The notes under the pieces: generated by a model
Databases searched by the model: none
Told to the model about the DNA's origin: nothing
The model's input: only the letters and a program-made list of their open reading frames with translations
Position numbers and translations under genes: made by a program
In this document: positions 10-25,514 of the stretch, one piece after another
Layout: the number at the start of each line of letters is the position of its first letter
Numbering within the stretch: the first letter of the stretch is position 1
DNA from: Chrysophaeum taylorii
Taxonomy: Eukaryota > Sar > Pelagophyceae > Pelagomonadales > Pelagomonadaceae
Length of the DNA stretch: 33,167 nucleotides
Assembly (NCBI GenBank): GCA_029834535.1
Contig: JAQMWT010000628.1
Coordinates: forward strand, 1-33,167
Direction: 5' to 3'

Positions 10-1660
10 TTGAGGCGTTACCATCTCGAGCGGAACCCGGGACCGTTTACGGCGATGCGTGGACCAGAGGAGAGTGCACCTCCTAGGCCACCATCTGTGA
101 ATACGAGAGCGACAGATTTTCGCGGGATGTCGACCCCGAGGTTCTGCCAGACCATCAACGAACGATTCGAGATGTACCAGTCGCAGATGGAGCAAATCAT
201 ACGTGAACTTGAGAACACCGCGCGACGCTCAACAACAACGCTCGGAAGTGGAGCGACAGCGGATCGACAACGATCGACTTCGGCGAATGATGGAGGGAAT
301 CCATGCGGGCGCATGCTCGAGAGGCACGGCCAACCTCTCCGAATGCTACGCGTGTTACGCCCGACGACGATGATGACGCTGTATCGGCACTGACCGACGA
401 TCAGCCACCGCGAAGTCGACCGGAGCCTACCCGCACCATCATACTGACCCCGGTTCGGCGCGTCCTCGTGACGAAGAAGAAATACTTCGTGTCAGGGGAA
501 GGGAGCTGTGGTATGACACGTATCACATTTTCGAATCTCACGGGGCAAATTACCAAGGACCGTGATGAGGTGGACGCGTGGTGGATGCAATTGCGGCGAT
601 GATGGAAGGCAAGATTGATAAACCCTCAATAGCGATGAATGTGATGGAGGCGAGTTCAACTCAACCCGCCCCTATGGAAGCTTATCGCAAGTGGGAGGAA
701 GTAACGGCCCAGAGATGGGAAACAATACAAGGATGGGACCATCACAATGAAAGAGTTGCGCCAGCATGACGAGGACTGTCTGGATGCTATGCAAGAGGCG
801 ACGAAGCTTCCTGGTCCACCTCGGGCTACGGTTGAGGAGCTTGAACGTGAATGGTTCATTTACGGCAAGGGAATTTGTCATTGAATAAGTATATCGCGCG
901 ATGGGTGCAGAAATTCGGCCAGTGGAGAGCAATGTCAGGTCGTGATACTGATCCGGCTGCGTTCCGTTCGCATTTATTGCTGGTCTCCATTCTTGAGCGC
1001 TTGCGGACGAGCGTCGAACTTGCTCAGGCCTCACCGCATATGAAAGCATCTACTCTCACCCTCAACGATGTCATTCAATTGACCATCCAAATTTCAAGAT
1101 TCTGGAAGCCAACCCTACTGCCAACATCGAAGATGCGATTAAGAAGGAGAAAGGAAAGGAGCACGCACCACGAATGAGGAGAGAGCAGCAGCAGCAGAGG
1201 CAGCAGTTGCAGCCAGTCCAACGGGTGGTTATGTTACTGACTCGGGAGTTGGAACCTGGCTACCACAGGGGATAGAGAACCATACGCGTTAAGCAATTAC
1301 GACGTGCCTCAGTTGCGGCCGGCATGGTAGTTGTTACCACGACAACGGTGTATGTCCTGCGCCGGACAATCCCTCGAGGAAGAGGCGTGCTGCTCAGACG
1401 TTGACGGCTGCGGGTTTTCCAGCAACGCCAGAGGGACAGGAGCAATACCGACGGACGCTTTTACCCAGCAGCGTTTGGTTGCAGGCTCTCAACAACAGGT
1501 GGTCCGAAGGCAGCCCGCAGTGCAGCGGACCGCTCAGACCTCGGTGCGCCTGGAGGATCTGACTACGGCTCTCAACACGATGAACTTGATTCGTCAGGCA
1601 CAGCAGACGGCTCCGCCGGGTAGAGGGCGACAGTCTCAGAGAGCGAACCCTAGCCAGCAC
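10..1660 (+). pseudogene. Gag region of Gypsy-1, frameshifted
   Basis: Short open stretches alternate between frames (about 10-393, 303-602, 578-769, 747-884 and 851-1177). The piece at 851-1177 is the best gag evidence: it reads RQGNLSLNKYIARW near its start, followed by hydrophobic helices, like the conserved retrotransposon gag core. Upstream codons at 747-884 encode an acidic helical lead-in ending EELEREWF that joins it after a one- or two-base shift. A zinc-knuckle-like motif follows near 1305. Gag would form the element's particle and bind its RNA. At least four frame changes make this copy non-functional. The first 300 bases are assigned to gag only by position; I do not recognise their sequence. 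Confidence 0.6.
1305..1355 (+). other. Zinc-knuckle-like motif in Gypsy-1 gag
   Basis: This frame encodes CLSCGRHGSCYHDNGVC, spacing C-x2-C-x7-H-x4-C. The canonical gag knuckle is C-x2-C-x4-H-x4-C, so this variant has a longer second loop. It lies where a nucleocapsid motif is expected, between the gag core and the protease. RNA binding is inferred from position and pattern only. Confidence 0.5.
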
Positions 1661-1661
1661 A

Positions 1662-2543
1662 ATGATGGTGTCGCCGCTCAGTGGCTTGAAGTGCTTGGCG
1701 AAGATCAGGATGACACTAAGCGACTACTGCACTGTGCAGTATTCTGAGCTCATGGAGAGCAACGTGTATGACGATGACGAGGTTGGGGGCGATGATGATA
1801 GCTTATCTGCAGAAGGCTATTCCCCTGGTGACCCCATGGAACCTCCTTCCTTTTTGGTCATCACTGAAGATGCATGGGTGGAGGAGCAGGAGCAAAGTAC
1901 CGAAGTGACTGGAGTTGCATCTAGAGTTCTCTCGGAAGACGAAGATAATCGTGACGAATTGGGGTATACGATTGTTCGTGTGGGACAAGACACCTTGGTT
2001 GCCATGGATATAGTGCCACCGAGGGACGACTGTGCCGAGCGTTATGTTGCTCACCCTTCTATCTCTTCGGATTTCGAGAATTTTTGCCCTCAGACTGCGT
2101 TGAAGATCACTCAGGATCCCGACCATCGTGAAAATAAAGCCGTAAGGTACGATGGCACGAGATCCGCCTCTTTGACGTATGTGCCTGTGGCTATCTCTTC
2201 GCAAGATGGTTCGAAATATTCCATCATCACTGCCGGCTTGGATGGCATGGCTGATCCCCCCTACATCGATCACCGCTTGTATCGCAAACTTGATCGTGAC
2301 GGCAAAATCATGTATCATCAGCCACTCCCCACGATTCGCACTCTAAATGGGTCAGGAGGCTCGGGAGCTGCTATTCGAGAATGGGTCATCCTCCGGATAT
2401 CCTTGGTGCCGACGACATCCATGCTGCTCATGTTCTTCGTTGGTCAAACGAATGGGCAGTTACTATTAGGAGCACGAGAATTACGACTCTTGGGTACGAT
2501 TTTGGATTATGCGACAGAGCTATTTTTCGGCGTTCTGAAGTGA
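1662..2543 (+). CDS. Aspartic protease region of Gypsy-1
   Basis: This 293-residue open frame has an acidic N-terminal half (runs of D and E around residues 33-50) and a retropepsin-like C-terminal half. Residues 193-198 read LDGMAD, where D-[ST]-G-A is expected, followed by PPYIDHRLY, which matches the stretch after the catalytic Asp. Near the C-terminus GQLLLGARELRLLG matches the hydrophobic-hydrophobic-G motif of the retropepsin fold (ILGxxxL). The Asp is present (residue 194), but the triad is D-G-M, so activity is doubtful or one residue has been lost. The frame ends just after the LLLG motif; the spacer that follows is in another frame. The protease would process Gag-Pol. Superfamily fairly sure, activity unsure. 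Confidence 0.68.
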   Translation: MMVSPLSGLKCLAKIRMTLSDYCTVQYSELMESNVYDDDEVGGDDDSLSAEGYSPGDPMEPPSFLVITEDAWVEEQEQSTEVTGVASRVLSEDEDNRDELGYTIVRVGQDTLVAMDIVPPRDDCAERYVAHPSISSDFENFCPQTALKITQDPDHRENKAVRYDGTRSASLTYVPVAISSQDGSKYSIITAGLDGMADPPYIDHRLYRKLDRDGKIMYHQPLPTIRTLNGSGGSGAAIREWVILRISLVPTTSMLLMFFVGQTNGQLLLGARELRLLGTILDYATELFFGVLK

Positions 2544-3155
2544 CCATTGGAGTTCTCAAGAATCGGACTTCCGCCTCGCCACAAGACCAGCATGGAATTG
2601 TCCTTTACAATGATGCATTCGATGCGACTCCGCAGGTAGTGCAGATGTTCCCGACAGCTAAGCTTGCTGTGCAATACGGAAACATCCAAACTTGGACGCC
2701 AGTTGGTAAACCGTGGAGTTATGACAGTCTATGCTTTTCTATTCGTATCAGAGCGAATCACCATCACATTCCTTCCGGTGATCAGACTGCTGGAAAGGAA
2801 AAGCTGAAGACCAACTTTGAATGCCCTGCAGCGCGGAGGGAAGATATCATCCGTCATTTCGCGTACGTGACGAGTACTCGATTTCTTCTTCCAAACCAAC
2901 CGTACTTCTTGGAGATGGAGTGCGATGTGCCGCTGGAAAAGAGTCACGTATTCCGACCTTATCGGTCACTCCTCAAAGATCTCCGCCTTGTACCTGGTTC
3001 CTATTCATCGTATTGTACCGATGAGCCCAACGAAGTTCATGTGGCTGTGGAGCACATTGGTGACGAACCCATTGGTATCGACCCCGAAGTCCCGGTGGTC
3101 GAAGGCGAGATCATACCGCATGAAGGATGTGTCAACATGCAGCTAGAAGCCACTG
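2544..3155 (+). other. Pol spacer between protease and methyltransferase of Gypsy-1
   Basis: An open frame (part of 2381-3190) continues from the protease after a one-base frame change, and the methyltransferase frame takes over near 3156. It encodes about 210 residues with no domain I recognise, including a Pro/Tyr-rich stretch and an acidic end (EHIGDEPIGIDPEVPVVEGE). It may be a domain linker or an N-terminal extension of the methyltransferase. Confidence 0.45.
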
Positions 3156-4590
3156 ATGACGTGTCATGCCACTCTTACGGCTGCTGTTGACGACGACGAA
3201 GTCGAGGAGGATGTCTTGAGTGACAGACCTCCTCCTCAGCCACCTCCAGATGAAGAAGTGAAAAAAACACCAGAAATGGAGATGGAGGCGACTGTTAAGG
3301 AGCTGCTATCTAAGCACGCCTCCTTGGTTTGGATACCCATCACCTACACCTTTGTCGTCGTCTATTTTGCTGGCGCTGGAGGATCAACGTTGGGTATCCG
3401 GCGATGCAATGAGCTATATGGCAGTTCATTTCGCATTGTCCTGGCTTTGGATGCTTGTCCTCAAGCCCGAGCCACCTTTGAACTCAATTTTCCGAAAATT
3501 TCCTATGTTTTGCATGAGTTGGGGAAATCTCATCGTCGTACATACGACTTGGTGTTGTCGTATTTACACTCAGATTTTTGGAAGCACTCTTATTTTCACG
3601 CCAGTCCGCCGTGTATCTATGGATCGACTGCCAATTTGCACTACAGGGACGCACGCAAGGGCGCTACTATTACTTCTTGGGTCCTGCGTCATTTCCGCAA
3701 CGCACCTTATGTGATTGGACGATGGACACTCGAGCAGGAACCATCAGTGATCCCTTTTGTGCATCACCAATTTTATGTGCCGCGTATTGTGTTTTGATTT
3801 CTATAATATCACGCCAGAGCTGCTGTGCTCGCGCACGCGCCTACTTGCTTGCAATGTTCGCTTGGAACTGCCGTTATTGTCGCGTGTACCACCGAATTTA
3901 CGGGACCGTTTTGGCCCAGCGTTGGGATTTACCGATGGTCACCCGCTCATTATAGTGAACAGTTTCTCATCTACGCGCCCGGCTATCGGCCCTGCCTTTA
4001 CGGTGACGCGCAATAAGCTCCGCTTAGGACCTCATTTCTCGAACACCCGTCCACTCACGTTGCAGATGCACCACGAAATTATGACCGTTCCTGCTACGTG
4101 GCAATGGGGTACGACAGTTTCCGAGACAGTAGCTATGAAGATGCTTGGCAGTATGGTGCCACCCGCGACTATGACGCGGATTGCGCTAGCAGTGCACAAT
4201 TCGTTTGAACCTTCACTTCGAAATTTGGGTAAGTTGCGGAATATTGCGACGACTACGCTAGCCCAACCTGATCACCATATTCTACGGTTTTCACCTTTTG
4301 TTGTAGAGTCGCGCATTCCAACGCTCGACCCTGCCACTCGAAGTGTATCATGGATTGCGCCCGATGAACTCTATTCTCCTGCGAGTCCTGCACCATCCGC
4401 TGCTGCCACCACCACCCCGCCACCGCCTTCAGTTACATCGCCAGGGACGGCTTCATCTTTTGCAGGGGGCACCGTCGCCACTGCTGTTATGCAGAGCAAC
4501 CAAGTTGATAACCAGCCCTCCGCAACTGCTGAAGAAGAAGGCACCGCGAAAGTGCGACCAGCGTATTTCAATACGTACGACGTTCCGTGA
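3156..4590 (+). pseudogene. DNA cytosine-C5 methyltransferase domain embedded in Gypsy-1 pol (one frameshift)
   Basis: C5 MTases transfer a methyl group from S-adenosylmethionine to cytosine. After an acidic, Pro-rich lead (residues 10-50), residues 66-82 hold motif I, FVVVYFAGAGGSTLGIR, the FxGxGGxxxG cofactor loop. Motif II follows (ALDACPQARATFELNFP). Motif IV, with the catalytic Cys, is ASPPCIYGS (Cys at residue 153). A motif VI-like EQEPSV lies near residue 190. At about 3797 the frame moves by one base; the continuing frame has a motif VIII-like CSRTRLLA, the STRPAIGPAFTVTR stretch typical before the C-terminal lobe, and motif X, LGSMVPPATMTRIAL, equivalent to iGNaVPP. A Pro/Ser-rich linker leads on to the RT. 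Gypsy-2 carries the homologous C-terminal half, so the domain belongs to the family and is not a chance insertion. The Q of PCQ is I here. Fold assignment strong; activity of this copy unlikely because of the frameshift. Confidence 0.83.
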
Positions 4591-4629
4591 GCGGACGCGC
4601 CTCACGACGAACATGGTCAACCTTCACCG

Positions 4630-5565
4630 GTGATGCCTCCTCATTTAGCGGATCAGGAGAGCATGCAGGTCATCCCTCCGACCGTCGCGCAGGTCGAAGA
4701 GGTGATGACTGAATTTGGCATTACAGAGCATCCTGCCTTAGATGATGACGAGAAGCTGATGATGAAGCATTTAATCTCGTATTCGTGGGCATTTTTCGAT
4801 GATGTGATGAGACCTGTTGATTCACCTGAAGTGACGCTCCGGTTCAAAGAAGAGAACCCGACTCCCGTCAAACTCTCGCCATATCGGTTGTCGAAAGAAA
4901 AGATTGAATGTTTGCGGATGCAGATTGAAGCATGGACCCGAGACGGAGTTATTCGTCCCGCGAATTCTCCATGGGGTTTCCCTATTTTGATGTTGCCTAA
5001 GAAAGGTGCTGAGCCTGGCACTTCCAATGCTTACAGAGCAGCTGTCGACCTACGGCGCCTCAATGCATTGCTCAAGGATGATAGCTGGCCGAGTGTGAGC
5101 ATGGCTGACGCGTTGATGTTTCTCATTGACAAGTTTTGTCGTTCCAGTTTGGATATTCGTTGGGGCTATCACAATTTACGATTGTCGCTGGATGCACAAG
5201 ATGTGGTCACCTTCACTAGTCCTCTGGGAGCATACAGCTACATGCGTCTACCTTTGGGAGTCAAACCAGCCGGAAGTTTGTTTTGCAAGCAGTTGAACAC
5301 TGACTTGTCGCAATGGCTATATCGTGATCTCGTGGCGTATATCGACGATATTCTCGCCGGTCACGCAGATACAAAGAATCACTTGCAGTGCCTTGTGCAA
5401 GTTATTCCCCATCTCGCCTTGAAGGGGTACAGCGCCAATATCAAGAAGATTCAGTTTATGCAAGAAGTCATTGAGTTTTTGGGTCATTTATCTACCCCGA
5501 ATGGACTTCTTCCATCACCAAGGTCTTTAGAAGCCATCAGACACATGCCAATTCCTGGCACTTAG
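4630..5565 (+). CDS. Reverse transcriptase of Gypsy-1
   Basis: This 311-residue frame is a Ty3/gypsy RT. Motifs in order: KLSPYRLS before the fingers; GVIRPANSPWGFPILMLPKK; YRAAVDLRRLNALL; SLDIRWGYHNLRL (palm, first Asp); FTSPLGAYSYMRLPLGVKPAG; and the catalytic box VAYIDDILAG (YIDD at residues 237-240). FLGHLSTPNGL closes the connection region. It would copy the element's RNA into cDNA in the particle. The frame ends at a TAG (5563-5565), but the same frame continues at once into the RNase H region, so this is a single premature stop in pol. The ATG at 4630 is only the first in the frame; in an intact element this is part of a longer polyprotein. Confidence 0.93.
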   Translation: MMPPHLADQESMQVIPPTVAQVEEVMTEFGITEHPALDDDEKLMMKHLISYSWAFFDDVMRPVDSPEVTLRFKEENPTPVKLSPYRLSKEKIECLRMQIEAWTRDGVIRPANSPWGFPILMLPKKGAEPGTSNAYRAAVDLRRLNALLKDDSWPSVSMADALMFLIDKFCRSSLDIRWGYHNLRLSLDAQDVVTFTSPLGAYSYMRLPLGVKPAGSLFCKQLNTDLSQWLYRDLVAYIDDILAGHADTKNHLQCLVQVIPHLALKGYSANIKKIQFMQEVIEFLGHLSTPNGLLPSPRSLEAIRHMPIPGT

Positions 5566-6507
5566 TCGGATGCTGACCCTAAGAAGCAAGTGCGATCTTC
5601 CCTTGGAATGGGGAGCTTTTGCCGGCGTCATGTAAGGAATTTTGCGAAAGTTGCAGAGCCATTAAGACAACTGACGTTGCCGGAGGTGAAATTCAAGTGG
5701 ACGAAAGAGTGTCAGGAAGCTTGGGATGCCATCATCGAGGCTATTGTCACGTCGAAGGGCGTCTACCATCCTGATTACTCGTTGCCTTTTTACATTCGAA
5801 CTGATGCTTCCGCGCATGGGTTGGGTGCTTACCTGTTTCAAAAAGTACCAGTCGTTGACGACGATGGAAGAGAAAGAATCGAAGAGAGAGTTATCGAGTA
5901 CTGGAGTCGAACCGTGCCTAAGTCGATGAGGAAGTATGATCCTCGGCGCTTGGAACTCCTCGCAGTACTCTCTGCTCTCGAAAATTCCCGATTTTATATC
6001 GAAGGTCATCATACGAAGTTAGAGACGGATCATCGTAATTTAGCGTTTCTGCGGGATTCGAATCATACGTCTGGACAGTTAGCACGATGGGCTATGCGGC
6101 TTGCTGCGTTCGACCGGGAGCTCGGATACAAACCTGGAAGCTCCCCTGGCATGCGTATTCCGGATTGTCTGTCGCCCAACCCTATCGATAAATTGATCAA
6201 GAAAGATGAAGACGGGGAACCGATCAATGAAGCTTTTTTGATTTTCCAAGAAATCCCCACCGATGTCCCTGGCACCGCTTGCTTCACCTTCTCTTCGGTG
6301 ACGATGCCTATGCTGACGGACAGCGGACCCACCGCAGCTATGGTAGCAGTTAGTACGCGACAGAACGTACAACCGCCTCAATTCTCGTACGAATCTGAGC
6401 CAGTTGACTCCGTCGAACGTCTCCCTTTTGCGGATCAAGCGGAGGATGAGATCACTATCGACGAGATAGCGAAAGAACAAGCTGACGGATTACTACTCGG
6501 ACGTTGA
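5566..6507 (+). CDS. RNase H and pre-integrase start of Gypsy-1
   Basis: This continues the RT frame after the in-frame TAG. The start, with CRRHVRNFAKVAEPLRQL and FKWTKECQEAWDAI, is the tether between RT and RNase H. RNase H then reads FYIRTDASAHGLGAYLFQ (first catalytic Asp), VIEYWSRTV, YDPRRLELLAVL (catalytic Glu) and LETDHRNLAFL (second Asp), with SPGMRIPDCLSP at the end, where gypsy elements have the VPGxxNxxADxLSR motif. The final residues EITIDEIAKEQADGLL resemble the lead into the gypsy integrase zinc finger, but a stop and unrelated sequence follow. RNase H would degrade the RNA template during reverse transcription. The integrase is missing from this copy. Confidence 0.9.
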   Translation, partial: SDADPKKQVRSSLGMGSFCRRHVRNFAKVAEPLRQLTLPEVKFKWTKECQEAWDAIIEAIVTSKGVYHPDYSLPFYIRTDASAHGLGAYLFQKVPVVDDDGRERIEERVIEYWSRTVPKSMRKYDPRRLELLAVLSALENSRFYIEGHHTKLETDHRNLAFLRDSNHTSGQLARWAMRLAAFDRELGYKPGSSPGMRIPDCLSPNPIDKLIKKDEDGEPINEAFLIFQEIPTDVPGTACFTFSSVTMPMLTDSGPTAAMVAVSTRQNVQPPQFSYESEPVDSVERLPFADQAEDEITIDEIAKEQADGLLLGR

Positions 6508-6911: not shown

Positions 6912-7064
6912 ATGGAGGGCTGTGAACCCTGTGTGACTAATTTTCGCCCGGATGAAATCGATGTCCTCGTCACTAACTTCGGTCTCCACAGCAACAAAGT
7001 TCCTGCTGATGTAGCTGAACGAGCTTATCGTACCATTCGTGAGCGTGACCTTCGTCACCCTTAA
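6912..7064 (+). CDS. Possible 50-residue ORF at the 3' end of Gypsy-1
   Basis: An ATG-started frame of 50 codons ends 21 bases before the polypurine tract. It has a CEPC pair near the start, and the middle reads FRPDEIDVLVTNFG. It may be a remnant of a 3' pol or gag-like segment, or chance. No family is recognised. The rest of 6508-7085 shows no integrase motif. Confidence 0.25.
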   Translation: MEGCEPCVTNFRPDEIDVLVTNFGLHSNKVPADVAERAYRTIRERDLRHP

Positions 7065-7099: not shown

Positions 7100-7430
7100 T
7101 GTGGCAGTAACGCCCATTTCCCCCACTTGCCTGCCTGCCACTTGACTTACCCTGGTTGTTGCCCTGGTATTGACCTTGCATTTATGGGGGGGGTGTCATC
7201 TCGACACCTTCACCTGCGCTTCCACTGGACCCAATGCATCGGGCATTTGTATTGCTTTCTTGCTGTCTTCTTGATATTACCCTCTTTTGATTGTCCGATT
7301 TCGTGATGGCGTGAGGTATTGCGCTGAGATCGGGCGTGTGGTGGTTTCACCCGCGGTTCGGGTTGGGAGGAAGGGTTGTTGAGGCCTCTGGTCCGGCCAG
7401 GAGGGGCGGGTTTCTGAGAAAACCACTACA
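7100..7430 (+). repeat. Putative 3' LTR (start) of Gypsy-1
   Basis: It begins TGTGGCAGTAACGCCC right after the polypurine tract, like the Gypsy-2 LTR start. The LTR end cannot be placed because the 5' LTR is outside the window and only the first ~16 bases resemble Gypsy-2. The stretch holds no gene; it includes a G8 run at 7186. It ends where the Helitron-derived 3' sequence begins. Confidence 0.4.
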
Positions 7431-8310: not shown

Positions 8311-9735
8311 CTAGTCGGGGTCATCGCCGAGTCGTGGGGCAGGCGAAGAGAGGACGGGCCCCGCCCGTAGGTCGTACGCATGCTGTCGCCGGACGTATGT
8401 GCGACGAAGGGTGACGTCCTGCTGGGATCGGGCGGCCTGGGTGAGGTTCCACGAGGCGGCGACATGGGTGAGGGCGGTGAGGGCACAGCGAGCCCGGCCT
8501 AATGCGTTGGCGATCCCCCACTCACGGTAGATGCGGCGAGCTTGGGCCGCCTTTGCCTCTGTGAAGTTGGCGCAGCCGCTTGCCACCCAGGTTCGCGCAG
8601 CGATGCGCTCTGCGCATGTTTGGGCGAGAGCGTGGCAGGCCGCGCTGGCCTCACCGAAGGCACCAAAGACGAGGCCAGCGACGGTGCCGTAGCTACGTAG
8701 CCGCTGTTCGACAGGGCCCAAGGAGCCAGGCGGTGGTGCTGTACCCGGCTGGGGGATGATGGCGTCAATGCCGCGGGCGTGAGCGAGGTATTCGGAGTGG
8801 ACTTGCGCTGCGCGCCGATCGACAGGCGACGGGTGGGAGGGATGGAGGGCGTGGGCGGTGTACAACGAACCCCAAGCGAGGGTTTTGATGTCGTAGAGTT
8901 GCACCTTGTTGTCGAGCGTGGTGAGGATGTCTGGGACGACGTGGCGACGGTCGAGATTGGCTCGGTACCGGCCGTAGAGGCGCGTGCGAATGATAGGGGC
9001 GACGACGTCAGCAAAGATGCCGAAAACCTCGGACAGGGCTGGGATGCCGGCCTCTTCGACGCTGCAGAGGACGCAGTCGAGCTGGCCGTCATGCCAGGTG
9101 GTCCGCGCTCCTCCACGGTTGATAAGGTTGGCCTGCGTGAGAAGCACCTTGCCGTGAGCGTCGAGAACGACGTCAGTGCCCAGAATGCGAGTGCCCACGA
9201 GGCCCGAACAAGCTGGAGAGGGGTAGCCAAAGTACTGGGCACACATCTCAGCCCAGCAGCGGTTGGGGATTTGAAGGGCGGAGCTGGGCCACGAGCTGAT
9301 GAACGTGGTCGAGAAGCGATCCCAGGAGGACGCCGCTACTCGAAGTGCATCGGTGATGGGAAGGGTGGCCGCAAGGCGCTGGGGTGCAGTGGCCCGAGCT
9401 GTCTCGCGCTGGGAGGTTAGAGCACGCTGGAGTTGGGGTATGAGCACGGGTGTCGAGATGGTGGGGTCGACGAGGACGCCCATGGAGACGAATTCGTGGG
9501 AGAGAGGACCGTCGACGAGATGAACGTTGGCGGGGTCGCCGGAACCAGCGCCGCCGTGGGAAGCCAGCGTGGTACGGAGATCAGCCCGAAGTCCGTCCCA
9601 CGCAGTCTCGAGTGCTCGCCCCAGGCGGCAACCGGATGCGAGGAGGTGGTGCCAACGGTGCAACTCGTTACCTGTGCGAAAAGAAGTGGCACCCAGGACC
9701 GAGGCGAGGCGGGGGAGGTAGCCAGGGACCTCCAA
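8311..9735 (-). CDS. Uncharacterised ORF with PD-(D/E)XK endonuclease-like signature
   Basis: This 474-residue open frame has no ATG at its 5' end and stays open toward the flanking repeat, so it is probably a C-terminal fragment of a longer protein. The start, PGYLPRLASVLG, resembles the tail that follows RT domains in some non-LTR proteins (weak). The middle has WHDGQLDCVLCSVEEAGI, then SEVFGIF, then VVPDILTTLDNKVQLYDIKTL: an E, a PD and a DIK in the order of a PD-(D/E)XK nuclease core. A GPVEQRLRSYGTVAGLVFGAFGEAS segment and a basic helical C-terminus follow. It is flanked on both sides by copies of the same ~100-bp G-rich repeat, which suggests it moves as a unit. High GC (near 65%) sets it apart from its neighbours. 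Nuclease function is inference; it may be the tail of a LINE or other mobile-element protein. Confidence 0.5.
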   Translation of the reverse strand: MEVPGYLPRLASVLGATSFRTGNELHRWHHLLASGCRLGRALETAWDGLRADLRTTLASHGGAGSGDPANVHLVDGPLSHEFVSMGVLVDPTISTPVLIPQLQRALTSQRETARATAPQRLAATLPITDALRVAASSWDRFSTTFISSWPSSALQIPNRCWAEMCAQYFGYPSPACSGLVGTRILGTDVVLDAHGKVLLTQANLINRGGARTTWHDGQLDCVLCSVEEAGIPALSEVFGIFADVVAPIIRTRLYGRYRANLDRRHVVPDILTTLDNKVQLYDIKTLAWGSLYTAHALHPSHPSPVDRRAAQVHSEYLAHARGIDAIIPQPGTAPPPGSLGPVEQRLRSYGTVAGLVFGAFGEASAACHALAQTCAERIAARTWVASGCANFTEAKAAQARRIYREWGIANALGRARCALTALTHVAASWNLTQAARSQQDVTLRRTYVRRQHAYDLRAGPVLSSPAPRLGDDPD

Positions 9736-9807
9736 GGCACCCGTAGGATCGCGAAGGTCGACGAGGTGTGGGAGGGCCTGGGCCGCCGTGCCAACAAAGG
9801 CGGGTGT

Positions 9808-9907
9808 TTGTCTTTAAATGTCGACTGCTAAGAGGGGGGGTGTGTGGGGGGAGCATGAAGGATGTGGGTGGGTTTGTGGGGTAGGAGGGATGTGCCTGAC
9901 GGGCGGG
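9808..9907 (+). repeat. Single G-rich repeat unit flanking the PD-(D/E)XK-like ORF
   Basis: This unit (TTTGTCTTTAAATGTCG, AGAGGGGGGG, AGCATGAAGGATGTGGG, GATGTGCCTGACGGGCGG) is nearly identical to the last unit before the ORF at 8205-8296. The ORF therefore sits between direct repeats of about 100 bp. Confidence 0.88.
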
Positions 9908-9913: not shown

Positions 9914-10916
9914 TCCCCCGATTCAGGGTAAGGATCAGGTAGGCGCGCGAGCCAGACAGTGATCCTGGAAGCCGTCTACGGCGACCTCGCAGACTATTTC
10001 CACGACCCGTGGCGGCTCTTTCAGCGCGCCATTCTCACGCCCCGTCGAAACGATGTCGTCGATGCTGACAACGCGCGCATGACCGCCGCCTTTTTTTCCC
10101 GGAGACGAGGCGTCGGAGTTCTTTTCGGCAGACTAGGTTGGGTCGGAAGACGACGCCTCGCTCTCAAGAGTCAAGTTTTGAACTCCCTGACAACCAACGG
10201 CATGCTGACTTTGATCGCGAGCTTAATGTCTTCGCAACCTCGACCCGTCGCACGGCCACTGCAACGGTACCAGATACATGATCGATCGTGTCGTGTCACC
10301 GAGGCTCCTCCAACCTGTATCCCTTAAGGCCCGCCGTCGCCAAACGATCAACAAGAGCCAGGGCCAGACGCCCCGCGAGGTCGGCGTCCTCTTGCCCAAG
10401 CCCGTCTTCTGTCACGTCCAGCTCTACGTGGCTCTCTGTCGATCGGCAACCCCGAGGATATGCTCTTCTGAGTCGACGACTCCACCCTTCCCCACACGTG
10501 CTGCGCAATACCGATAAGCCCCCTCTCGGCGCCTACACGCGCACTGTAGGTGAACTTACTGGGCCAGGTGAGCTTACTGGAACCAGGTGAACTGACTGGG
10601 GTTAGAGATTGGGACTATGTGAACTTAGTGACCCGGTGAAATTACTGGGACCAAGTGAGCTTACTGAGGTTTTAAGAGTAAACTCAAAGGTTAGCGGCGT
10701 GTGCGGATCAAAGCAACTTAGATTGGCGGGGGTGAGAGCGACGAGCTCAAAGGAGAGTGGGGTGAGGGGATGTGAGCACGAGTGGGTTTACGCCGAACTT
10801 ACTGGGGTTAGAGATTGGGACTAGGTGAAATTACTGACTCGGTGAACTTACTGGGACCAGGTGAACTTACTGGGGTTAGAGATTGGGACTAGGTGAGCTT
10901 ACTGGCCTGCACTTGT
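9914..10916 (+). mobile_element. Helitron-derivative element, full copy 1
   Basis: A ~1-kb unit found again, inverted, at 24.5-25.5 kb. The 5' end is shared as TCCCYCGATTYAGGGTAAGG and the 3' end as CCTGCACTTGT. The 5' 600 bp encode the C-terminal part of a PIF1/Helitron helicase; the 3' 400 bp are tandem AGGTGAACTTACTGGG-type units. Both copies start at the same point in the helicase and share the same frameshift, so this is a defined defective derivative that has multiplied, not two random truncations. The 5' TC is Helitron-like, but the 3' end is CTTG rather than the canonical CTRR, and no strong terminal hairpin was found. Confidence 0.75.
9959..10517 (+). pseudogene. Helitron PIF1-like helicase, C-terminal fragment
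   Basis: The first frame (to about 10204) reads VILEAVYGDLADYFHDP, then AILTPRRNDVVDADNARM, the stretch of Helitron helicases with AILxPxNxxVdxiN, and later LNSLTTNGM. The frame then shifts by one. The second part has [26 protein letters not shown] (helicase motif VI region), then GVLLPKPVF and [10 protein letters not shown], all diagnostic of the PIF1/Helitron C-terminus. Walker A/B and the Rep nuclease are absent. Helitron helicase unwinds DNA during rolling-circle transposition; this fragment lacks the motor and cannot do so. The segment between GTRYMI and TINKS is shorter than usual, an internal deletion. Confidence 0.85.
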
Positions 10917-11016
10917 AATATACCAAAATGATCAAACTTCAAAGAAATTTACCAAACTTTCTGATCAAACTTGACCGGTCCTTAAATTTAAACATTTAAA
11001 CGGGGGAGCTAACGAA

Positions 11017-11369
11017 CTAACTAACTTCAGACCTCTCCCGAGCATGGGAGCCAGGCCGGACCGACAGGAGCCAGTCCGGAATCACGGGCCTGTAGACGAG
11101 GAGCGCCGAAAGGTCGGTCGGCGGAGAGTGACCATCAAGCTTGTCGCCATGCGACGAGGAGACCGCGATGTGACTGACAACCAACTCGTCGATAACCTTC
11201 CGTCTTCGCCCCCCGGCCATACCCCGTCCCACTGCGAACGTTCCGGCTGCCAACCGGCCCGCCCGGGAGGCGACTAGGTGCCAACCTACGCCGGGAGGGC
11301 GGATGCCCTCGCAAGGCTCAGGATTCATGAGGCACCGTCCTCCATCGCAACCGTAGTCGGCGATCAGGG
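11017..11369 (-). mobile_element. 353-bp interspersed repeat, copy 1 (SINE/LINE-like)
   Basis: It has exactly the length of copy 2 at 15911-16263 and differs at about five positions. On the minus strand it starts CCCTGATCGCCGACTACGG and ends in short GTTA repeats (GAAGTTAGTTAG). A minus frame is open throughout, but I recognise no protein. The short tandem tail and the target duplication of copy 2 suggest target-primed reverse transcription. No clear duplication flanks this copy. Confidence 0.8.
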
Positions 11370-11559: not shown

Positions 11560-12861
11560 ATGTCGTCGAATAGTCTCACCGGCGCACCATCAACCAAGAA
11601 AAACATCCCTGAAGTGGAACGTGAAGCGAAACATGCTTACGATGCTGGTGATTTTGCTAGAGCGTTACAGGTATCTCTCAAATCCAGCAAATCATCGAGT
11701 GGTGCAGTTCACGGATTGTGTGCGTGTCCAGGCACTTGTGAAAGTGAAAGATTTACATGGTAAAGATGTCGAAGGGAATGGTGCGAATGTTGAAGTACAT
11801 AATTCGAGGTGTTATGTGTCGAACATTTAGGCGAAAAAAAGAGGCTACCGATTTGCGGCAGTGACGCAGCTTCAGCCAAGGAATACGCGATTATGGAATC
11901 TTGTCTGCATTCGAACATTGGTGTCGTGTGCCGTGGTTTAGGCCAGACGAGTATTGCAGATAAGCATTTTGCAAGAGCAATAGAGGCGAATTCGCGCACT
12001 AAAGACCCTGCTTCAAACAAGCGATACTGTATCTTGCAGTTCAATAGAGGACTAAGTTATCTTTCGGCTGGTCGTGGTCGTGAAGCACTCGCTTGCTTGG
12101 AGGATGCTTGCCATGCGTTTAGTGATCGGCCCGCGTTATGGCTACGACTCGCCGAGGCCTGTGTAGCGGAACGCGAGCGGTGCAAGTGGATTTCGGCCGA
12201 GAGGTTGGAATATGCTTGGGGCGAACTAACGAGAATCGAGGGTGTGCAACCCGAAATGGGGAGCGTTGATGGTGTACAACGCACTTTCTACGCAGATAAC
12301 TTCGATGAAGACGAAACTATTTGCTACCTACCTCGGGCGTCTCTATTTGCGCGGCATGCGTTGAGACTTGAGCGCGAGGGGCTGACGCCAAGAGCTGAAG
12401 AGACAAACTCTCACAGACAGCGACATTACTACAGTGACATTGCCGCTGGTTCGATTCTGCTGCTTTCATATGTTCATTTGGAACTTCACGACGTTGCTGT
12501 CGCTTTAGAGTGGGCCGAGTTGCTTCTCTCCTGGCCAAGATGCCGTGCGGCAACTGATGAGAGGATAGATCTCGCGCGGGTATATGCGACTGAGGCTCGA
12601 GCTGCTCTTGGTTACGGCATATGCGAACGTGATGGTGTTGCTTGTCGAGAAAGCTTCACACTGCCACCTGCAGAGTTTAATGATGCCACTCTCATCTCTC
12701 TCATCGACCACCACGATTCATCTGCGGCGTGGGACCATGCAAGTACGGGGTCGAAAGCCGATCGTGGTCGCAGACTAACAGTGCGCACCGCAGGGTGGAT
12801 GTTGCTCAATAAGGGCAGATTTGGTGAGGCTGAGCAATTCCTCGGAAATAGACTGGATTAA
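11560..12861 (+). pseudogene. CNOT10: CNOT10-like TPR protein, truncated
   Basis: CNOT10 is a TPR-repeat subunit of the CCR4-NOT deadenylase complex, which binds the N-terminal part of NOT1 with CNOT11. The first 35-40 codons (from ATG 11560) read like a TPR start (EVEREAKHAYDAGDFARAL). The frame then breaks, with stops at 11761, 11776 and 11782. It resumes from about 11800 for ~350 codons: SNIGVVCRGLGQTSIADKHF, NRGLSYLSAGRGREALACLE, then RPALWLRLAEACVA, the last two close to the CNOT10 signature (G..L...GRP..A..CL; P.LWLRLAE.CI). SILLLSYVHLELHDVAVALE and DLARVYATEARAALG follow, in CNOT10 order. About 200 residues of the N-terminal half and the C-terminal TPRs are missing compared with animal CNOT10 (about 740 residues). 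A 5' intron was considered (CAG|GTATCT at 11671) but the frame does not fit simply. Most likely a truncated gene or pseudogene between transposons. Confidence 0.6.
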
Positions 12862-14340: not shown

Positions 14341-15455
14341 TTAGCGCGAGCTTCCGCATCTCGAGCATCTCAAAACTTGACTGGGTAGTACACGCGTTTG
14401 ATAATATGGTCGAGCACATTGACGCAGTGCAAGGTGATCTTGACGACCAACACACCAAACTCGTGAGAGGAAATTAGCCACGCAAGAAACGAGATCTTCA
14501 GTCAGCTTCGACCTGACGGTGAAGCGAAATTCACCAATAAAATTATACGCGGGCTTGAAAAGGCAATTAGAAGTATGCAAATTAGACTTACAAAGGGAAA
14601 ATATGTCCTTGGGATAGAGATCGGAATCATTATGGAAAGCAACACGATGGTTCTCGAAATCACAGCGTGTGCAAACATCGGTAACAGAAATCTGCCACCG
14701 GCAATGAAGTGGCTGAATTAGCAGGGCGTAGGCAATTGGTAGCCTGAGCCGGCGGTCCAAAGAAGCATGCACAGCGAATTTTCATATCAGGACCGAATTT
14801 GCGATTATAACAAAAGGCAGCGCAATATGTAAAGGTAGGCCAAAGGGCAACGCAGAACACGAAGGCAGGCCGAACAGTCATATTCTGTCCTCGAAGACAG
14901 GCTTGAAGAAAAACTTGGAGAAAAAGCTTCGCCGGTTCTGCATGAGGAGCTTGAACATGATAGTGAATCCTAATCAGGAAGAAAAGAAAAGAATTACCGA
15001 GGACGATAGGGCACCGTCTCGTGATAACAACAGGAATAAGTTCCAAAGAGACGCCTACAATGTGTCAAACAATCGCCATCATAGGAGGGCTGCTGAAGTA
15101 GATCATCTTCCTGCTGTGCGTGCGTGTGAGTAGTCTGACACACCACGCATCGAGCGGCAGGGGCTTCGACTTCAGTCGTCATAGGCGGCCACCAGAAACG
15201 CCCCGAAATCAACTGAGCAATGCTCGTGCGATCCATGTATCCATCACAAAAGGGATTGTCCCTGTACAATGGACTGATATGCGTGCAAAGCTTCGCAGAT
15301 ACATAAATCATCTGATGCAGATCGTCAGCAATCCGGCATAGTACTTTATTGACACGTTCGAAACAAGACTCGACTCCACAATGACCAAGAGAGGGGCTTT
15401 GCGCCGTCCAAGGACAAATAGTCGAGTATGAGGGAGTTCTCTTCAGCTCTAGCAC
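14341..15455 (-). pseudogene. Integrase of Gypsy-2, degraded
   Basis: The upstream part (15455 to about 15110) has the gypsy integrase H2C2 finger pattern near its end: CDGYMDRTSIAQLISGRFWWPPM, then EAPAARCVVCQTTH, matching GHxG...T...fyWpxM...C..C. The core appears in another frame (14772-14341): ENHRVAFHNDSDLYPKDIF matches the second catalytic Asp region, and PAYNFIGEFRFTVRSKLTEDL aligns with the HPQTdGQtER stretch carrying the catalytic Glu. Between them (14660-15046) the frame is broken and the first Asp was not placed. Integrase would join cDNA to the genome; this copy is dead. Confidence 0.68.
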
Positions 15456-15910
15456 GAGCTCCTAGCGTAATTTGGTCGGGAGTCTCGTCGACAAACTTTG
15501 GACATGCAGCATCCTCAAACAACGAACGCGATTGCTTTGGCGACCGTTGCTTTGGACGTGGAATCGTCGCATTGGACACAACTAAAGACAGAGGATCACC
15601 CAGAGGTTCACCATTCTCATCAGAGGTTCTAGTCGTAATAGACGACAACCATACATGATATCCTGGCAGTGGCCCTCCTTCGTTATCTGGAGGCTCCGGC
15701 AGTCCTTGAAAACTCAAATAAGTGAGGTTGAGAGGTTCCGCAAACTCATCAATCTCGGTCACATGATCTGGAGGATATCGATAGAGATAATCAGGGAAGC
15801 TCATTCCCGGCGACTTACCCGACCTGTAGTCAGGTTCAGGGTCAAAATTTGCGGGTCGCATATCCCAGTGGGCGAACTGCACAGACGAATGAGGAGTCTT
15901 CCGTAACTAG
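15346..15910 (-). pseudogene. RNase H 3' part and connection to integrase, Gypsy-2
   Basis: The frame resumes after the 353-bp insertion with SSVQFAHWDMRPANFDPEPDY and SGKSPGMSFPDYLYRYP, aligning with Gypsy-1 RARWAM-like and SSPGMRIPDCLSPNP. A Pro-rich linker follows, then DETPDQITLGARARAEENS, equivalent to the EITIDEIAKEQAD lead into integrase of Gypsy-1. This frame is intact for about 178 codons. Confidence 0.75.
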
Positions 15911-16263
15911 CTAACTAACTTCAGACCTCTCCCGAGCATGGGAGCCAGGCCGGACCGACAGGAGCCAGTCCGGAATCACGGGCCTGTAGACGAGGAGTGC
16001 CGAAAGGTCGGTCGGCGGAGAGTGACCATCAAGCTTGTCGCCATGCGACGAGGAGACCGCGATGTGACTGACAACCAACTCGTCGATAACCTTCCGTCTT
16101 CGCCCCCCGGCCATACCCCGTCCCTCTGCGAACGTTCCGGCTGCCAACCGGCCCGCCCGGGAGGCGAATAGGTGCCAACCTACGCCGGGAGGGCGGATGC
16201 CCTCGCAAGGCTCGGGATTCATGAGGCACCGTCCTCCATCGCAACCGCAGTCGGCGATCAGGG
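15911..16263 (-). mobile_element. 353-bp interspersed repeat, copy 2, inserted in Gypsy-2 RNase H
   Basis: Nearly identical to copy 1. It is flanked by a direct repeat TCTTCCGTAAC (15897-15907 and 16264-16274; 12 bases if the preceding G is counted), a target-site duplication. The minus-strand 3' end is a GTTA-type tail (AGTTAGTTAGCTA) before the duplication. Removing the insert and one duplicate rejoins the two halves of the RNase H region, so this insertion is younger than Gypsy-2. No poly-A and no clear pol III boxes are seen. Confidence 0.9.
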
Positions 16264-16765
16264 TCTTCCGTAACAACGTCCGATATCGACGATCCGTCTC
16301 AGATAGAGTCCCTGCTTCGATAGAAACTCCAAAATGCTCCAGAGGGAGAAAGACAGTCCACAGTTCCAAACGGAGGGGCTCGTAGAGTCGTATTTCTTCC
16401 GGCATGGCACAGCTACAATGCTCAATCGTTCGCTCATCTCGAGTGACTCTTCCATCGTCGTCTTCGACTTCGACATTCGTCAGCAATTTAAGTTTGATAG
16501 CCTCACTCTCCTTCACGTGCTCTGGCGTCGGCAACAAGAGTACACCAACCAAATCGCGCGGTGCGTCTTTCCAAGGAACATCCAACTTCTCCTCATATTT
16601 GAATCTGAATGCAAGATGCCCTTTATTAATCTTCTCGCCTTTGACTCGCACGTGTGGCTCGCTCATCATTTTTGGTTCGCGATTCTGCTCAGGATGTGGC
16701 GGAATGTTCAAATGCGGTTGTCGGGGGGGGGGCAGCAAAAGAAGCATGTGACGTCCCCGGCGCAT
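16264..16765 (-). pseudogene. RNase H 5' part, Gypsy-2
   Basis: Aligned with Gypsy-1: KGHLAFRFKYEEKLDVPWKDAP corresponds to KGVYHPDYSLPFYIRTDAS (catalytic Asp kept). VEDDDGRVTRDERTIEHC corresponds to VVDDDGRERIEERVIEYW, and EIRLYEPLRLELW to SMRKYDPRRLELL (catalytic Glu kept). The sequence is much more diverged than the flanking element ends. The upstream 30 or so codons (His/Pro-rich) belong to the pre-RT linker, so no RT remains. The insertion at 16263 stops the frame before the second half. Confidence 0.75.
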
Positions 16766-17361
16766 CTATCCTAGGCGGCGATAAAAGCACCTCAGGAGGT
16801 TTCCATCGAGTGGGATCTTGTAAATCATCAGTTGACACCCACGTGACGATTCGGGTGCACGTGTTAATCGGCGGAAAGTGCCGATGGTAGTAGGTAATCT
16901 CGGTACGCTTCACGGAACCCGTGGAGCGCTGCCCAACAGGACATAGCACTTTCCGTAGCACAGCAGCGTAGGGATCGGTAGCCAAAATTTTCAGAAAATC
17001 CGGAGGGACGAGGGACGGCAAAGGGATAAGCGAAGCGCTTTGCCACAAGCTGCCCAGTCAGAACTTGGCGGCAGGGTCGTCAATTCGACGGTCATCGGCT
17101 GAGTCGGCGGTTCGGCGACAGAGCAACAAGGTCCCATGCGGCGAGAGATGCGCGCGACGGTGTAGCCAGCAGCGGTCGAAATCCGTAAAGGAATCACGTT
17201 GGTCATCGAAAGCAAGTGCGGTTTGTCACCCAGGCCTAACGGGTTCGTAGGCGTGGGCTGTAGATCCACACAAGTCGGAGGAGTTCCTTGCAGGTGCAAG
17301 GGAAGATCAGAGACTGACAAACGCACGCGGCAGCTCATCAAGTTGAGTGTCATGTCGTGGG
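16689..17361 (-). pseudogene. C-terminal half of the C5 methyltransferase, Gypsy-2
   Basis: Two overlapping frames align with the C-terminal lobe of the Gypsy-1 methyltransferase. The first (17353-16991) has GTPPTCVDLQPTPTNPLGLG, matching RVPPNLRDRFGPALGFTDG, then LTTLPPSSDWAACG, matching IMTVPATWQWGTT. The second (17048-16689) has LPSLVPPDFLKILA, the motif X counterpart of LGSMVPPATMTRIAL, then INTCTRIVTWVSTDDLQDP, matching LDPATRSVSWIAPDELYSP. A one-base frame change lies between them. The catalytic N-terminal half is missing because the copia LTR interrupts at 17361. The match between diverged copies supports the domain as an ancestral part of the family. Confidence 0.75.
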
Positions 17362-18003
17362 TGGAGAGATTTGACCCTCTCCGGGTACATGGTAGAGATT
17401 GCGTGCAGTCTTAGGCGTGTACAGACCATTCCGCTTGTCACATGCTACTACACAAGGTAGGGATTTAGGCCCTAACTCCTTAAGGACATTAGGTCCCATA
17501 GAAGCGTTTACACTGACAACGGGGAACGAAGTCTCTGTTAATTAAACAGAAAACCCCGTATCTGACGGTACGCACCTGGAGGCCTACTCCATGTTGGAAA
17601 AGAGCTTCAGACTGGGTTCTTCATAGTCACGAAAATATAATTGCGGAAGGGTAAGGGAGAAAGGAAGAAGGGAAAGCCGTATTACGGAGAGAAAACAAGG
17701 TAGGGATTTAAGCCCGAACTCCTTAAGGACATTAGGTCCCATAGAAGCGTTTACACTGACAACGAGGAACGAAGTCTCTGTTAATTAAACAGAAAACCCC
17801 GTACCCGACGGTACGCACCTGGAGGCCTACTCCATGTTGGAAAAGAGCTTCAGACTGGGTTCTTCGTAGTCGTGAAAGAAAGGGGCGGAAGGGTAAGGAA
17901 AAGGAAGAAAGAGGGAAAGCCGTATTACGGAGAGAAAACCCTCGTGTAGAGATAGGTGTGAAAATGTTCCAGTGTCGCACACATAATAGTGTAGCTCTCT
18001 GGA
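17362..18003 (-). repeat. Copia LTR (block A) with an internal tandem duplication
   Basis: On the minus strand it runs from TCCAGAGAGCTACAC to AATCTCTCCA and matches the LTR at 22560-22965, with the same ends. It contains two head-to-tail 243-bp units (17454-17696 and 17697-17939), which account for its length (642 bp against 406). It is the 3' LTR of the minus-strand copia element and abuts Gypsy-2 directly. Its ends lack a TG start but share the AGAGA/TCTCT inverted core. Confidence 0.85.
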
Positions 18004-20339: not shown

Positions 20340-21668
20340 TTAACCATCTTGTTGAGCTATGGGTTGTTGTAAGCCGAGTAACGTGCGAAATCTGCTGAAA
20401 AGTGGAGCTCCAAAGGGTTTGGTAAATCCATCGGCGATATTATGGGTACCGGAAACATGATGTAGGCGGATTCGTTTTAACTGTACGTAGTCGCGTATAC
20501 GGAACCAGCGTGTGCTGATAGCTTTAGCCTTAGTCGCGCTGTCGGGGTTATTTGATAGATGAATAGCAGAGGCCGAATCTCCAAGTATGGGACTGTTACG
20601 TATGAACGACATGTCCGATGGGAGGGGATTGTCTTGAGCATCATAATCTAGTAGCAAATTTTTCCCTGAAGGTTGGCGAAGATAGAAGTGAGGGTTTATA
20701 ACGAATGCCATTTCCGTTAGCAATTTGCGCAACCAAATCACATCATCGGCACACATATTGAGGGCGATAAGGTCACTCTCATGCGTAGAAGTAGCTGTTA
20801 TAGGCTGTAGCTTGGACTTCACAGTGATGAGAGAACCAAACAAAAAGATGGCGTAGCCTGTTGTAGATTTGCAGTCTTGTTCATAAGAAGGTGCATTATC
20901 GGCATCAACGAATGCGACCAGTGGATCAAAATTACCTGAATTAACTTGTTCTTTAGTGTAGTCCAACATGGTGGCCATGTCAGTACGATTACCGATAAGA
21001 AGTCGAAGATGGTCCATTAGAGCGGAAGAACCAGAGTAGTACCAGAGGCGAAGATTGCGATTTTCGGGCTTACGCAAGTAGCGGAGCGTTCCTGTTAGTA
21101 CTTGAACATGCAGAAATGCTGGATTATGCATTCCTCGAGAGCAACGACTAAGGCTTTGGGATAAATCAGGGCGACAGGCCAATTGAACAAACGTGAGCTT
21201 GCCGAGTAGCGTAGAGAAGGTATGAAGGATGAACTTGTCCATATCAGAAGATGGCTCTCCAGTTTTATATGTGGTTGATGGTGACATTGGTGTAGAAGTG
21301 GGACGTAATTGCATTAAAATGGGGTACTCTTCGAACAATGCGTCAAGTTTAGCCTGACAATCCAGTGATATAGAGCCATCTGTTGTACGCGTTATGCGCA
21401 TGCCTAGGAGAGTATGGACTTCCTCGAAGGTGTCGACTGAGTATTCCTTTTTCAGGGCTTGCTGGAACTCACGACGTAGAGTTTCCGAAGTACAAGTAAT
21501 GACGACGTCGTCTACTGAGAGCGTGCAAATTAGAAATGTAGCGTCAGCTTGGACTTTAGCGTAAATGCATGTGTCTGTTCGAAATCGTGTGTAACCTAAT
21601 GAATCAAAGAAGCTGTTTATGGTTTGATTCCAAAGGGCAGGGCTCTGACGCAATCCATAGGGTGACAC
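20340..21668 (-). CDS. Copia reverse transcriptase (C-terminal part) and RNase H
   Basis: The 442-residue frame begins within the RT at SPYGLRQSPALWN (the copia YGLkQsPraWn motif) and has the catalytic LSVDDVVITC (Y/S-VDD) and LLGMRI. Then comes the copia RNase H: FVDADNAPSYEQDCKSTTGY, STHESDLIAL (catalytic Glu), LGDSASAIHLSNNP (Asp), and HNIADGFTKPFGAPLF at the end. It would copy RNA to cDNA and remove the template. The N-terminal RT half, integrase, protease and gag are absent: the frame is joined at its 5' end to an unrelated RNase H fragment. The remaining part is intact. The following ORF X and LTR are on the same strand. Confidence 0.93.
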   Translation of the reverse strand: MSPYGLRQSPALWNQTINSFFDSLGYTRFRTDTCIYAKVQADATFLICTLSVDDVVITCTSETLRREFQQALKKEYSVDTFEEVHTLLGMRITRTTDGSISLDCQAKLDALFEEYPILMQLRPTSTPMSPSTTYKTGEPSSDMDKFILHTFSTLLGKLTFVQLACRPDLSQSLSRCSRGMHNPAFLHVQVLTGTLRYLRKPENRNLRLWYYSGSSALMDHLRLLIGNRTDMATMLDYTKEQVNSGNFDPLVAFVDADNAPSYEQDCKSTTGYAIFLFGSLITVKSKLQPITATSTHESDLIALNMCADDVIWLRKLLTEMAFVINPHFYLRQPSGKNLLLDYDAQDNPLPSDMSFIRNSPILGDSASAIHLSNNPDSATKAKAISTRWFRIRDYVQLKRIRLHHVSGTHNIADGFTKPFGAPLFSRFRTLLGLQQPIAQQDG

Positions 21669-21905
21669 GACCGGCGAGGAAGGCAGTATCGCGGTCGAAG
21701 AGGTCAGCGTCCTCGTTGGAAACTAAGACGTTGGCGTAATTGAGCTTGGTCTTGACGTACTTGTAGGCAAAGTCGTACGTGTCAACTGCGCAAATGAGGG
21801 AATTGAGGGCGATACGCAGATGGCGCAAGTTAGGCGACAGAAGACGGCGACGAACGATCTTCAGTGCCGGTTGGTTATCACACCAGACCGTGGTGCAGCG
21901 AACAA
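21669..21905 (-). pseudogene. Foreign RNase H fragment fused to the copia RT
   Basis: The frame reads TVWCDNQPALKIVRRRLLSP, then LNSLICAVDTYDF and KTKLNYANVLV, like the end of a Ty3/gypsy-type or similar RNase H (a D-N/S-x-pA motif followed by KxNxADxLS). It is not the copia RNase H. It is joined at about 21668 to the copia RT in a different frame, and on the other side to the 3' flank of a partial ORF X. A chimeric junction of two retroelement fragments. Confidence 0.6.
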
Positions 21906-24517: not shown

Positions 24518-25514
24518 ACAAGTGCAGGCCAGTAAGTTCATCTAGTCGCAATCTCTAACCCTAGTAAGTTCACGTGGTCCCAGTAAGTTCACCTAGTCCC
24601 AATCTCTAACCCCAGTAAATTCGGCGTAAGCCCACTCGTGCTCACACCCACTCACCCCACTCTCCTTCGAGCTCGTCGCTCTCACCTCCGCCAATCTAAG
24701 CTGCTTTGATCCGTACACGCCGCTAGCCTTTGCGTTCACTCTAAAAACCCCAGTAAGTTCACTTGGTCCCAGTAAGTTCACCTGGTCACTAAGTTCACCT
24801 AGTCCCAATCTCAAACCCCAGTAAGTTCACCTGGTCCCAGTAAGTTCACCTACCGTGCGCGTGTAGACGCCGGGAGGGGGCTTATCGGTATTGCGCAGCA
24901 CGTGTGGGGTAGGGTGGAGTCGTCGACTCAGAAGAGGATATCCTCGGGGTTGCCGATCGACAGAGAGCCACGTAGAGCTGGACGTGGCAGAAGACGGGCT
25001 TGGGCAAGAGGACGCCGACCTTGCGGGGCGTCTGCCCGTGGCTCTTGTTGATCGTTTGGCGTCGGCGGGCCTTAAGGGATACAGGTTGGAGGAGCCTCGG
25101 TGACACCACACGATCGATCATGTATCTGGTACCGTTGCAGTGGCCGTGCGACGGGTCGAGGTTGCGAAGACATTAAGCTCGCGATCAAAGTCAGCATGCC
25201 GTTGGTTGTCAGGGAGTTGAAAACTCGACTGTTAAGAGCGAGGCGTCGTCTTCCGACCCAACCTAGTCGGCCGAAAAGAACTCCGACGCCTCGTCTTCGG
25301 GAAAAAAAGGCCGCGGTCATGCGCGCGTTGTCAGCATCGACAACATCGTTTCGACGGGGCGTGAGAGTGGCGCGCTGAAAGAGCCGCCGCGGGTCGTGGA
25401 AATAGTCTGCGAGGTCGCCGTAGACGGCTTGGAGGATCACTGTCTGGCTCTCGCGCCTACCTGATCCTTACTCTCGCGCCTATCTGATCCTTACCCTAAA
25501 TCGAGGGACAAACA
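24518..25514 (-). mobile_element. Helitron-derivative element, copy 2 (inverted), inside Copia-1 gag
   Basis: The reverse complement matches the element at 9914-10916: same 5' start, helicase fragment with the same frameshift, and minisatellite 3' part ending CCTGCACTTGT. The helicase fragment (25440-24882) has AILTPRRNDVVDADNARM-type and [17 protein letters not shown] motifs, and TINKSHGQT where copy 1 has SQGQT. The 5' end carries a duplicated GTAAGGATCAG...GCGCGAGAG segment. Microsatellite (TTTGTCTG-like, 25510-25547) lies between it and the rest of gag. Confidence 0.82.

Follow-up and report, generated by a model that had tools for sequence, protein, structure and literature searches.

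A cytosine-C5 methyltransferase domain within the pol region of a multicopy Ty3/gypsy retrotransposon family in an algal genome

The stretch of DNA analysed here (33,167 nucleotides; the window) begins on its forward strand with a defective copy of a multicopy Ty3/gypsy LTR retrotransposon. The 5' end of the element lies beyond the start of the contig, and the window holds the 3' LTR only. The gag-side part (22..1471) is 95.6% identical in DNA sequence to L045:182-1632, a related locus of the same genome (blastn); in such relatives the Pfam gag match is weak (E 0.039). A protease-like region follows (2121..2543), recognized by motif reading only (GLDGMAD, 2235-2255), and the corresponding stretches of L045, L046, and L047 gave no Pfam match, even at an E value of 10. 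The methyltransferase (MTase) domain (3318-4224) is split over two frames (3147-3797 and 3751-4590), with a frame break near 3790 relative to its kin; its N half (3318..3791) and C half (3796..4224) are 98.7% and 97.2% identical to the L045 MTase. The reverse transcriptase (RT; 4591..5565; RVT_1, E 2.5e-15; YIDD at 5338-5349) ends its frame at a stop codon (5563-5565) and is followed by the RNase H region (5566..6507; RT_RNaseH, E 1.9e-25; RT_RNaseH_2, E 3.9e-23). Between 6507 and 6930, blastn revealed a gap, and no counterpart of the L045 integrase (L045:6678-8141) is found in the window. A remnant of the pol C terminus, seen in translation (6930..7061), precedes a 331-nt 3' LTR with TG...CA ends (7100..7430), whose boundary is the same in L045 and which has 40 scored matches in the genome. 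All of these features are on the forward strand. Given the several frame breaks, the stop in the RT, and the missing integrase, this copy is dead. An initial annotation had assigned 3156..4590 to a C5 MTase lying between an aspartic protease and the RT. The RT and RNase H do lie downstream on the same strand, the protease is a motif reading only, and the domain itself is narrower than proposed, with approximately 4225-4590 forming a linker between MTase and RT.

A second, decayed copy belonging to another branch of the family (subfamily B) lies on the reverse strand at 14994..17368 (blastn, 72 to 74% to L047-L049) and retains an MTase remnant at 17027-17368 on the same strand (tblastn, 41% to the L047 MTase; E 1.3e-20). 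Other features of the window were also noted. A 300-nt dispersed repeat occurs at 11010-11309 and 15904-16203 (98% identical), the second copy lying inside the decayed reverse-strand element, and 639-nt inverted copies are present at 9925-10563 and 24836-25474 (96% complementary). A 500-codon open frame on the reverse strand (8311-9813) has DNA that recurs in L048 and L064 at 92 to 97%, a copia-type RT occupies 20340-21722 of the reverse strand (RVT_2, E 8.6e-16), and a TPR-repeat open frame at 11803-12861 (TPR_2, E 1.4e-7) is possibly a piece of a host gene.

Inspection of the window MTase revealed a series of motifs on the forward strand: FAGAGGSTLG (motif I; 3366-3395), PPC (within 3600-3623), EQE at the position of motif VI (within 3726-3749), SRTRLLA at that of motif VIII (3829-3849), RPAIGPAFTVTR (3976-4011), RPLTLQMHHEIMTVPATWQWG at the position of motif IX (4048-4110), and MLGSMVPP at that of motif X (4141-4164). 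The motifs that the initial annotation had quoted (FAGAGGSTLG, PPC, RPAIGPAFTVTR, and GSMVPP) are thus all present, in order and on that strand. Both an alignment of four MTases of the family (A1) and hhalign place motifs I, IV (PPC), VI (Glu), VIII (RxR), IX, and X in order. Motif VI reads EQE where ENV is usual, and motif X reads GSMVPP or ASVVPP, not GN-VPP. All four aligned MTases keep PPC, the motif VI Glu, RxR, TVTR, and VPP, the subfamilies being about 42% identical. Every one of the 39 locus matches has PPC; these were fetched as best matches and represent at most 28 places.

Profile searches gave a graded result. The two halves of the window MTase scored 20 bits (E 5e-4) and 19.2 bits (E 9e-4) against PF00145, below the 22-bit cut-off, whereas the open-frame relatives L045 and L046 scored 30.7 and 30.8 bits (E 3e-7), each with two matching stretches; L047 alone among the open-frame relatives fell under the cut-off (18.9 bits). 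The profile check that the initial annotation had proposed therefore came out positive for L045 and L046 and short for the window halves and L047. With NCBIfam dcm, the best E value was 7.4e-5, far below the cut-off, under which two host MTases fell as well. The PHROG "DNA methyltransferase" profile matched L046 (E 7.3e-12), L045 (E 6.5e-10), and L047 (E 1.2e-6). When A1 was aligned with a profile of six C5 MTases by hhalign, the probability was 98.9% (E 1.3e-17), with 261 aligned columns that reach from motif I to motif X; five of the six references (A4) had been chosen as tblastn finds of L046, so this similarity is somewhat favoured. A PDB profile search with A1 yielded two weak matches, both to cytosine MTases (E 0.036 and 0.44). 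A chance motif match is ruled out by PF00145 in the kin, by PHROG, and by hhalign. On its motifs and profile matches, the window domain is a member of the cytosine-C5 methyltransferase family.

In the genome to which the window belongs (70.8 Mb, 697 contigs), searches with the window RT and the N and C halves of its MTase found at least 125, 159, and 145 matches, respectively. These are lower bounds on copy number, since the best candidates alone were scored (123 of 1118, 150 of 756, and 139 of 733). Among the matches listed, RT matches of subfamily A are 79 to 100% identical to the window and those of subfamily B, 21 in number, 60 to 61%. The first 81 of the 125 RT matches were typed, the other 44 being 19 partial subfamily A matches, 21 subfamily B matches, and 4 fragments. 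An MTase match lies upstream of the RT in 72 of these 81, C47 and C440 included; the lists behind this count had left out some short MTase matches, and it stood at 70 of 81 before those of C47 and C440 were added. On C510, the MTase matches lie approximately 4 kb upstream of the RT. Among the matches listed, none to the MTase lies upstream of the RT on C51, C311 (80478), C322 (108343), C6, and C79. Copies on many contigs rule out one odd contig as the source of the family, and the upstream MTase in most RT matches typed rules out an accident of the window copy alone.

Several relatives are open. L045 and L046 carry the gag side, the protease-like region, MTase, and RT in one stop-free frame (1812 and 2129 codons). 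L047, of subfamily B, has a single stop-free frame, which measures 2693 codons in the locus and extends to 3067 codons in the contig; it holds MTase, RT, RNase H, H2C2, and the integrase core (rve); against PDB it matched the Ty3 RT-RNase H (E 4.1e-66) and the PFV integrase (E 6.5e-17). The L047 element, on C5, lies between two LTRs of 336 nt that end in TG...CA and do not differ from each other; given this identity, it looks like a recent insertion. No target-site duplication was seen at this one element (flanks ATGCT and AGGAG). The 40 scored subfamily A LTR matches bracket MTase matches on C423, C237, C411, C4, C35, and C330; no LTR pair was recognised within loci L045-L048, L050, and L051, of which L048 and L050 each gave one repeat family. 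The 5' LTR of the C5 element is followed by a match to a tRNA-like 3' end, with no tRNA established. A search with this primer site found 100 places, each a single mismatch away, and the variant listed is the same for all of them except one; this near uniformity makes them look like element 5' ends. After the integrase, the L047 polyprotein continues for about 150 residues (KFVVFRIPDRKR...) that are common to L048 and in which Pfam found nothing beyond a weak Integrase_p58_C match just before them.

The MTase is clearly under purifying selection, near the level of the RT. The L045-L046 pair gave dN/dS ratios of 0.059 (MTase) and 0.046 (RT), and the L047-L049 pair 0.043 and 0.024, respectively; with dS at 1.49 to 2.52 the ratios are rough, yet far below 1. 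Pooling of 12 stop-free subfamily A copies gave a dN/dS of 0.20 (66 non-independent pairs, uncorrected counts).

Copies without the domain also exist. The frame of L063 (C248) passes from the gag side across the protease-like region into the RT, with no MTase in between, and L062 (C335) has the identical junction, at which its frame is broken. This junction occurs at four places in the genome, including C248, C335, and C394, and a reversed control gave 0. These copies lack about 1.1 kb of L046, and their flanks are 98 to 99% identical to L046. Given this closeness to an MTase-bearing copy, the absence is taken to be a late loss and not the ancestral state, and we read the common junction as a probable single recent deletion followed by the spread of an MTase-less lineage. 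The initial annotation had named members without the domain at this site as evidence against it; such members were found, at four places with one junction, and are understood as late loss. They weaken the need for the MTase in cis, whereas the claim about the family stands. Loss by one lineage indicates that the MTase is dispensable, at least with trans help from full elements. These siblings of one subfamily offer a natural plus/minus comparison within one nucleus. CpG ratios, each from single sequences, were 0.96 to 1.05 for subfamily A, 0.97 for the MTase-less L063, and 1.19 to 1.30 for subfamily B, and among them no CpG sign was specific to MTase-bearing copies.

A genome search with PF00145 gave at least 57 matches (the best 123 of 474 candidates scored), ten of which were examined. 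Two are host-like genes, both far above the cut-off, at L002:1006-3537 (within a 2086-codon frame) and L001:1498-2577; on their motifs we take them to be DNMT5-like and DNMT2-like, respectively. No DNMT1, DNMT3, or DNMT6 was recognised among the ten in this single-exon search. The other eight (L003-L008, L050, and L051) are elements of Ty1/copia type (L050:3096-8498; L051:3-5306). Their C5 MTase is another one, which exceeds the PF00145 cut-off and sits between a protease-like motif and the integrase/RVT_2. One 1801-codon frame of L050 contains a DGGAS protease-like motif, the MTase (PF00145, E 9.8e-8), a weakly matched integrase (E 0.0055), and RVT_2 (E 1.3e-17). Set against the reference C5 MTases, the profile of its MTase reached 93.2% (E 2.9e-7, 141 columns). 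A second copia-type family is represented in the window at 29442-31283 and by at least 78 genome matches. Its MTase-like stretch has TPPC, AEM, and QSRERWICIA and a weak hhalign match (35.5%, E 3.9e-4), with no Pfam MTase match and no MTase among its PDB matches. The gypsy and copia MTase profiles gave no match to one another (0.1% and 0.3%), and the two copia profiles aligned at 1.6% (E 0.031) along the whole domain. Such mismatch is weak evidence, since A1, A3, and A5 were built from few, close sequences; it fits separate captures by gypsy and copia elements, without proving them. A broader scenario, which we consider doubtful, is that Ty3/gypsy and Ty1/copia elements each captured a C5 MTase independently, the type being probably that of phages or bacteria. 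These enzymes would far outnumber those of the host and supply de novo methylation, with the host's DNMT5-type enzyme maintaining it.

There is very little room for doubt about the gypsy family itself: the domain, its place in the domain order, its recurrence, the flanking LTRs, and the purifying selection. The C5 MTase inside a Ty3/gypsy pol that was first noted in the window has thus held up. The initial annotation had further proposed that the element could methylate its cDNA or integrated copies, or influence silencing by the host. The family enzyme is probably active. It would be made within Pol and travel with the RT into the particle, where it may methylate the element's own cDNA, or else fresh insertions, such that new copies arrive already marked; we put this step slightly under an even chance. 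A DNMT5-type host enzyme could copy the marks, and the DNMT5-like gene suggests that they could be maintained; work on Cryptococcus reportedly indicates that DNMT5 can act by maintenance alone. Copied marks might quiet the element between rounds or let it pass as host DNA. The whole chain, from a defective copy of the family to an active MTase, self-marking, and host maintenance, is our leading account, with a probability of roughly 55%. Against this account stand the spread of MTase-less copies to four places, CpG ratios that give no sign of self-methylation, the weak PDB profile match, the changed letters of motifs VI and X, and the position of L047 under the Pfam cut-off. De Mendoza et al. 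(PMC5890265) proposed self-methylation and report that some retrotransposon DNMTs methylate CG when placed in yeast.

An active MTase might instead act mainly on something else, be it RNA (the element's own or the primer tRNA) or the DNA of the host, with an indirect benefit to the element. Selection keeps the domain without telling its target, and DNMT2-type enzymes act on tRNA (PMC12344493); however, the likeness of the element MTase to DNMT2 is that of a common fold only (the best match to the DNMT2-like protein of the host has an E value of 7e-4 and ranks below those to phage and plasmid MTases), and we consider such a target unlikely. Less probable still is a domain that no longer methylates and persists because it serves Pol or the particle structurally or by binding. 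The changed residues of motif VI (EQE) and motif X (GSMVPP/ASVVPP) and the existence of MTase-less copies would suit that role, but the catalytic PPC is kept in every locus match and in both subfamilies at 42% identity, as are the motif VI Glu and RxR. That the MTase is a functionless passenger of a successful element is very improbable: one lineage did lose it and then multiply, but a dN/dS of 0.04 to 0.06 at a dS of 1.65 to 2.52, close to that of the RT, argues strongly against this, and the same place of the MTase in two subfamilies speaks against it too.

The best pairwise matches of the MTase are phage or plasmid MTases, and the best tblastn E value is 7e-4. The MTase of Aphanizomenon phage CL131 (31 to 33% to subfamily A) and that of a Rubrobacter marinus plasmid (32 to 34% to subfamily B), each over about 90 to 110 amino acids, have a similar motif order; unlike the element-borne MTase, they are free-standing genes. 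In a tree of 12 MTases, six of the nine inner branches are open, which leaves kinship with the phage and plasmid enzymes undecided by the tree. Direct origin from the host DNMT2-like or DNMT5-like gene is unsupported, the best E value being 7e-4, to the DNMT2-like protein. A scan of viral contigs with A1 gave 27 pattern matches and no relative.

To our knowledge, Ty3 carries no MTase. The Ty3/gypsy structures 7q5b and 4ol8 (PDB) are alike in RT-RNase H and integrase, and their matched region holds no MTase. Why a genomic parasite should bring along a silencing-type enzyme is a question that de Mendoza and colleagues raised for dinoflagellates and one charophyte (PMC5890265); the precedents named in the initial annotation agree with that paper, which alone among those consulted gives a detailed description of such elements. 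MTase-bearing retrotransposons, including a charophyte Gypsy, are described there, and the closest is KnitGypsy-Dnmt3 of Klebsormidium nitens (PMC5890265), likewise an LTR Gypsy with a C5 MTase in the Pol frame, several copies, and purifying selection on the MTase. That element has a Dnmt3-class MTase and a DIRS-like repeat arrangement (PMC5890265), whereas plain LTR pairs are found here. Nothing ties the present MTase to Dnmt3, in a comparison that held no Dnmt1, Dnmt3, Dnmt6, or K. nitens sequence. The host lineage differs from K. nitens as well: the genome has a RuBisCO large subunit on a contig of its own, nearest to entries that we take to be diatom and red-alga enzymes. The host is accordingly an alga whose plastid is of the red type. 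In Symbiodinium, SymbioDIRS-Dnmt3 and SymbioLINE-Dnmt are also retrotransposons that bear C5 MTases in high copy number, but as DIRS and LINE elements they differ in their RTs and integration enzymes, and Symbiodinium Copia elements are without a DNMT (PMC5890265). PMC12344493 assigns members of DNMT3 to "LTR Copia and DIRS" elements, citing PMC5890265, whose charophyte element is a Gypsy. The accessible parts of PMC12477816, PMC9998398, PMC3145265, and PMC6180176 report no MTase-bearing element, and no prior report for this lineage was found in the open full-text literature, whose coverage stops short of preprints and most subscription papers. Retrotransposons with a captured C5 MTase were thus already known, though from few lineages; it is well supported that this genome adds a further lineage and an MTase without a tie to Dnmt3. 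It also adds a Ty3/gypsy MTase under purifying selection, the retention of which suggests that such elements may mark their own DNA, and, of added interest, copia-type elements that bear another MTase, along with MTase-less siblings of recent date.
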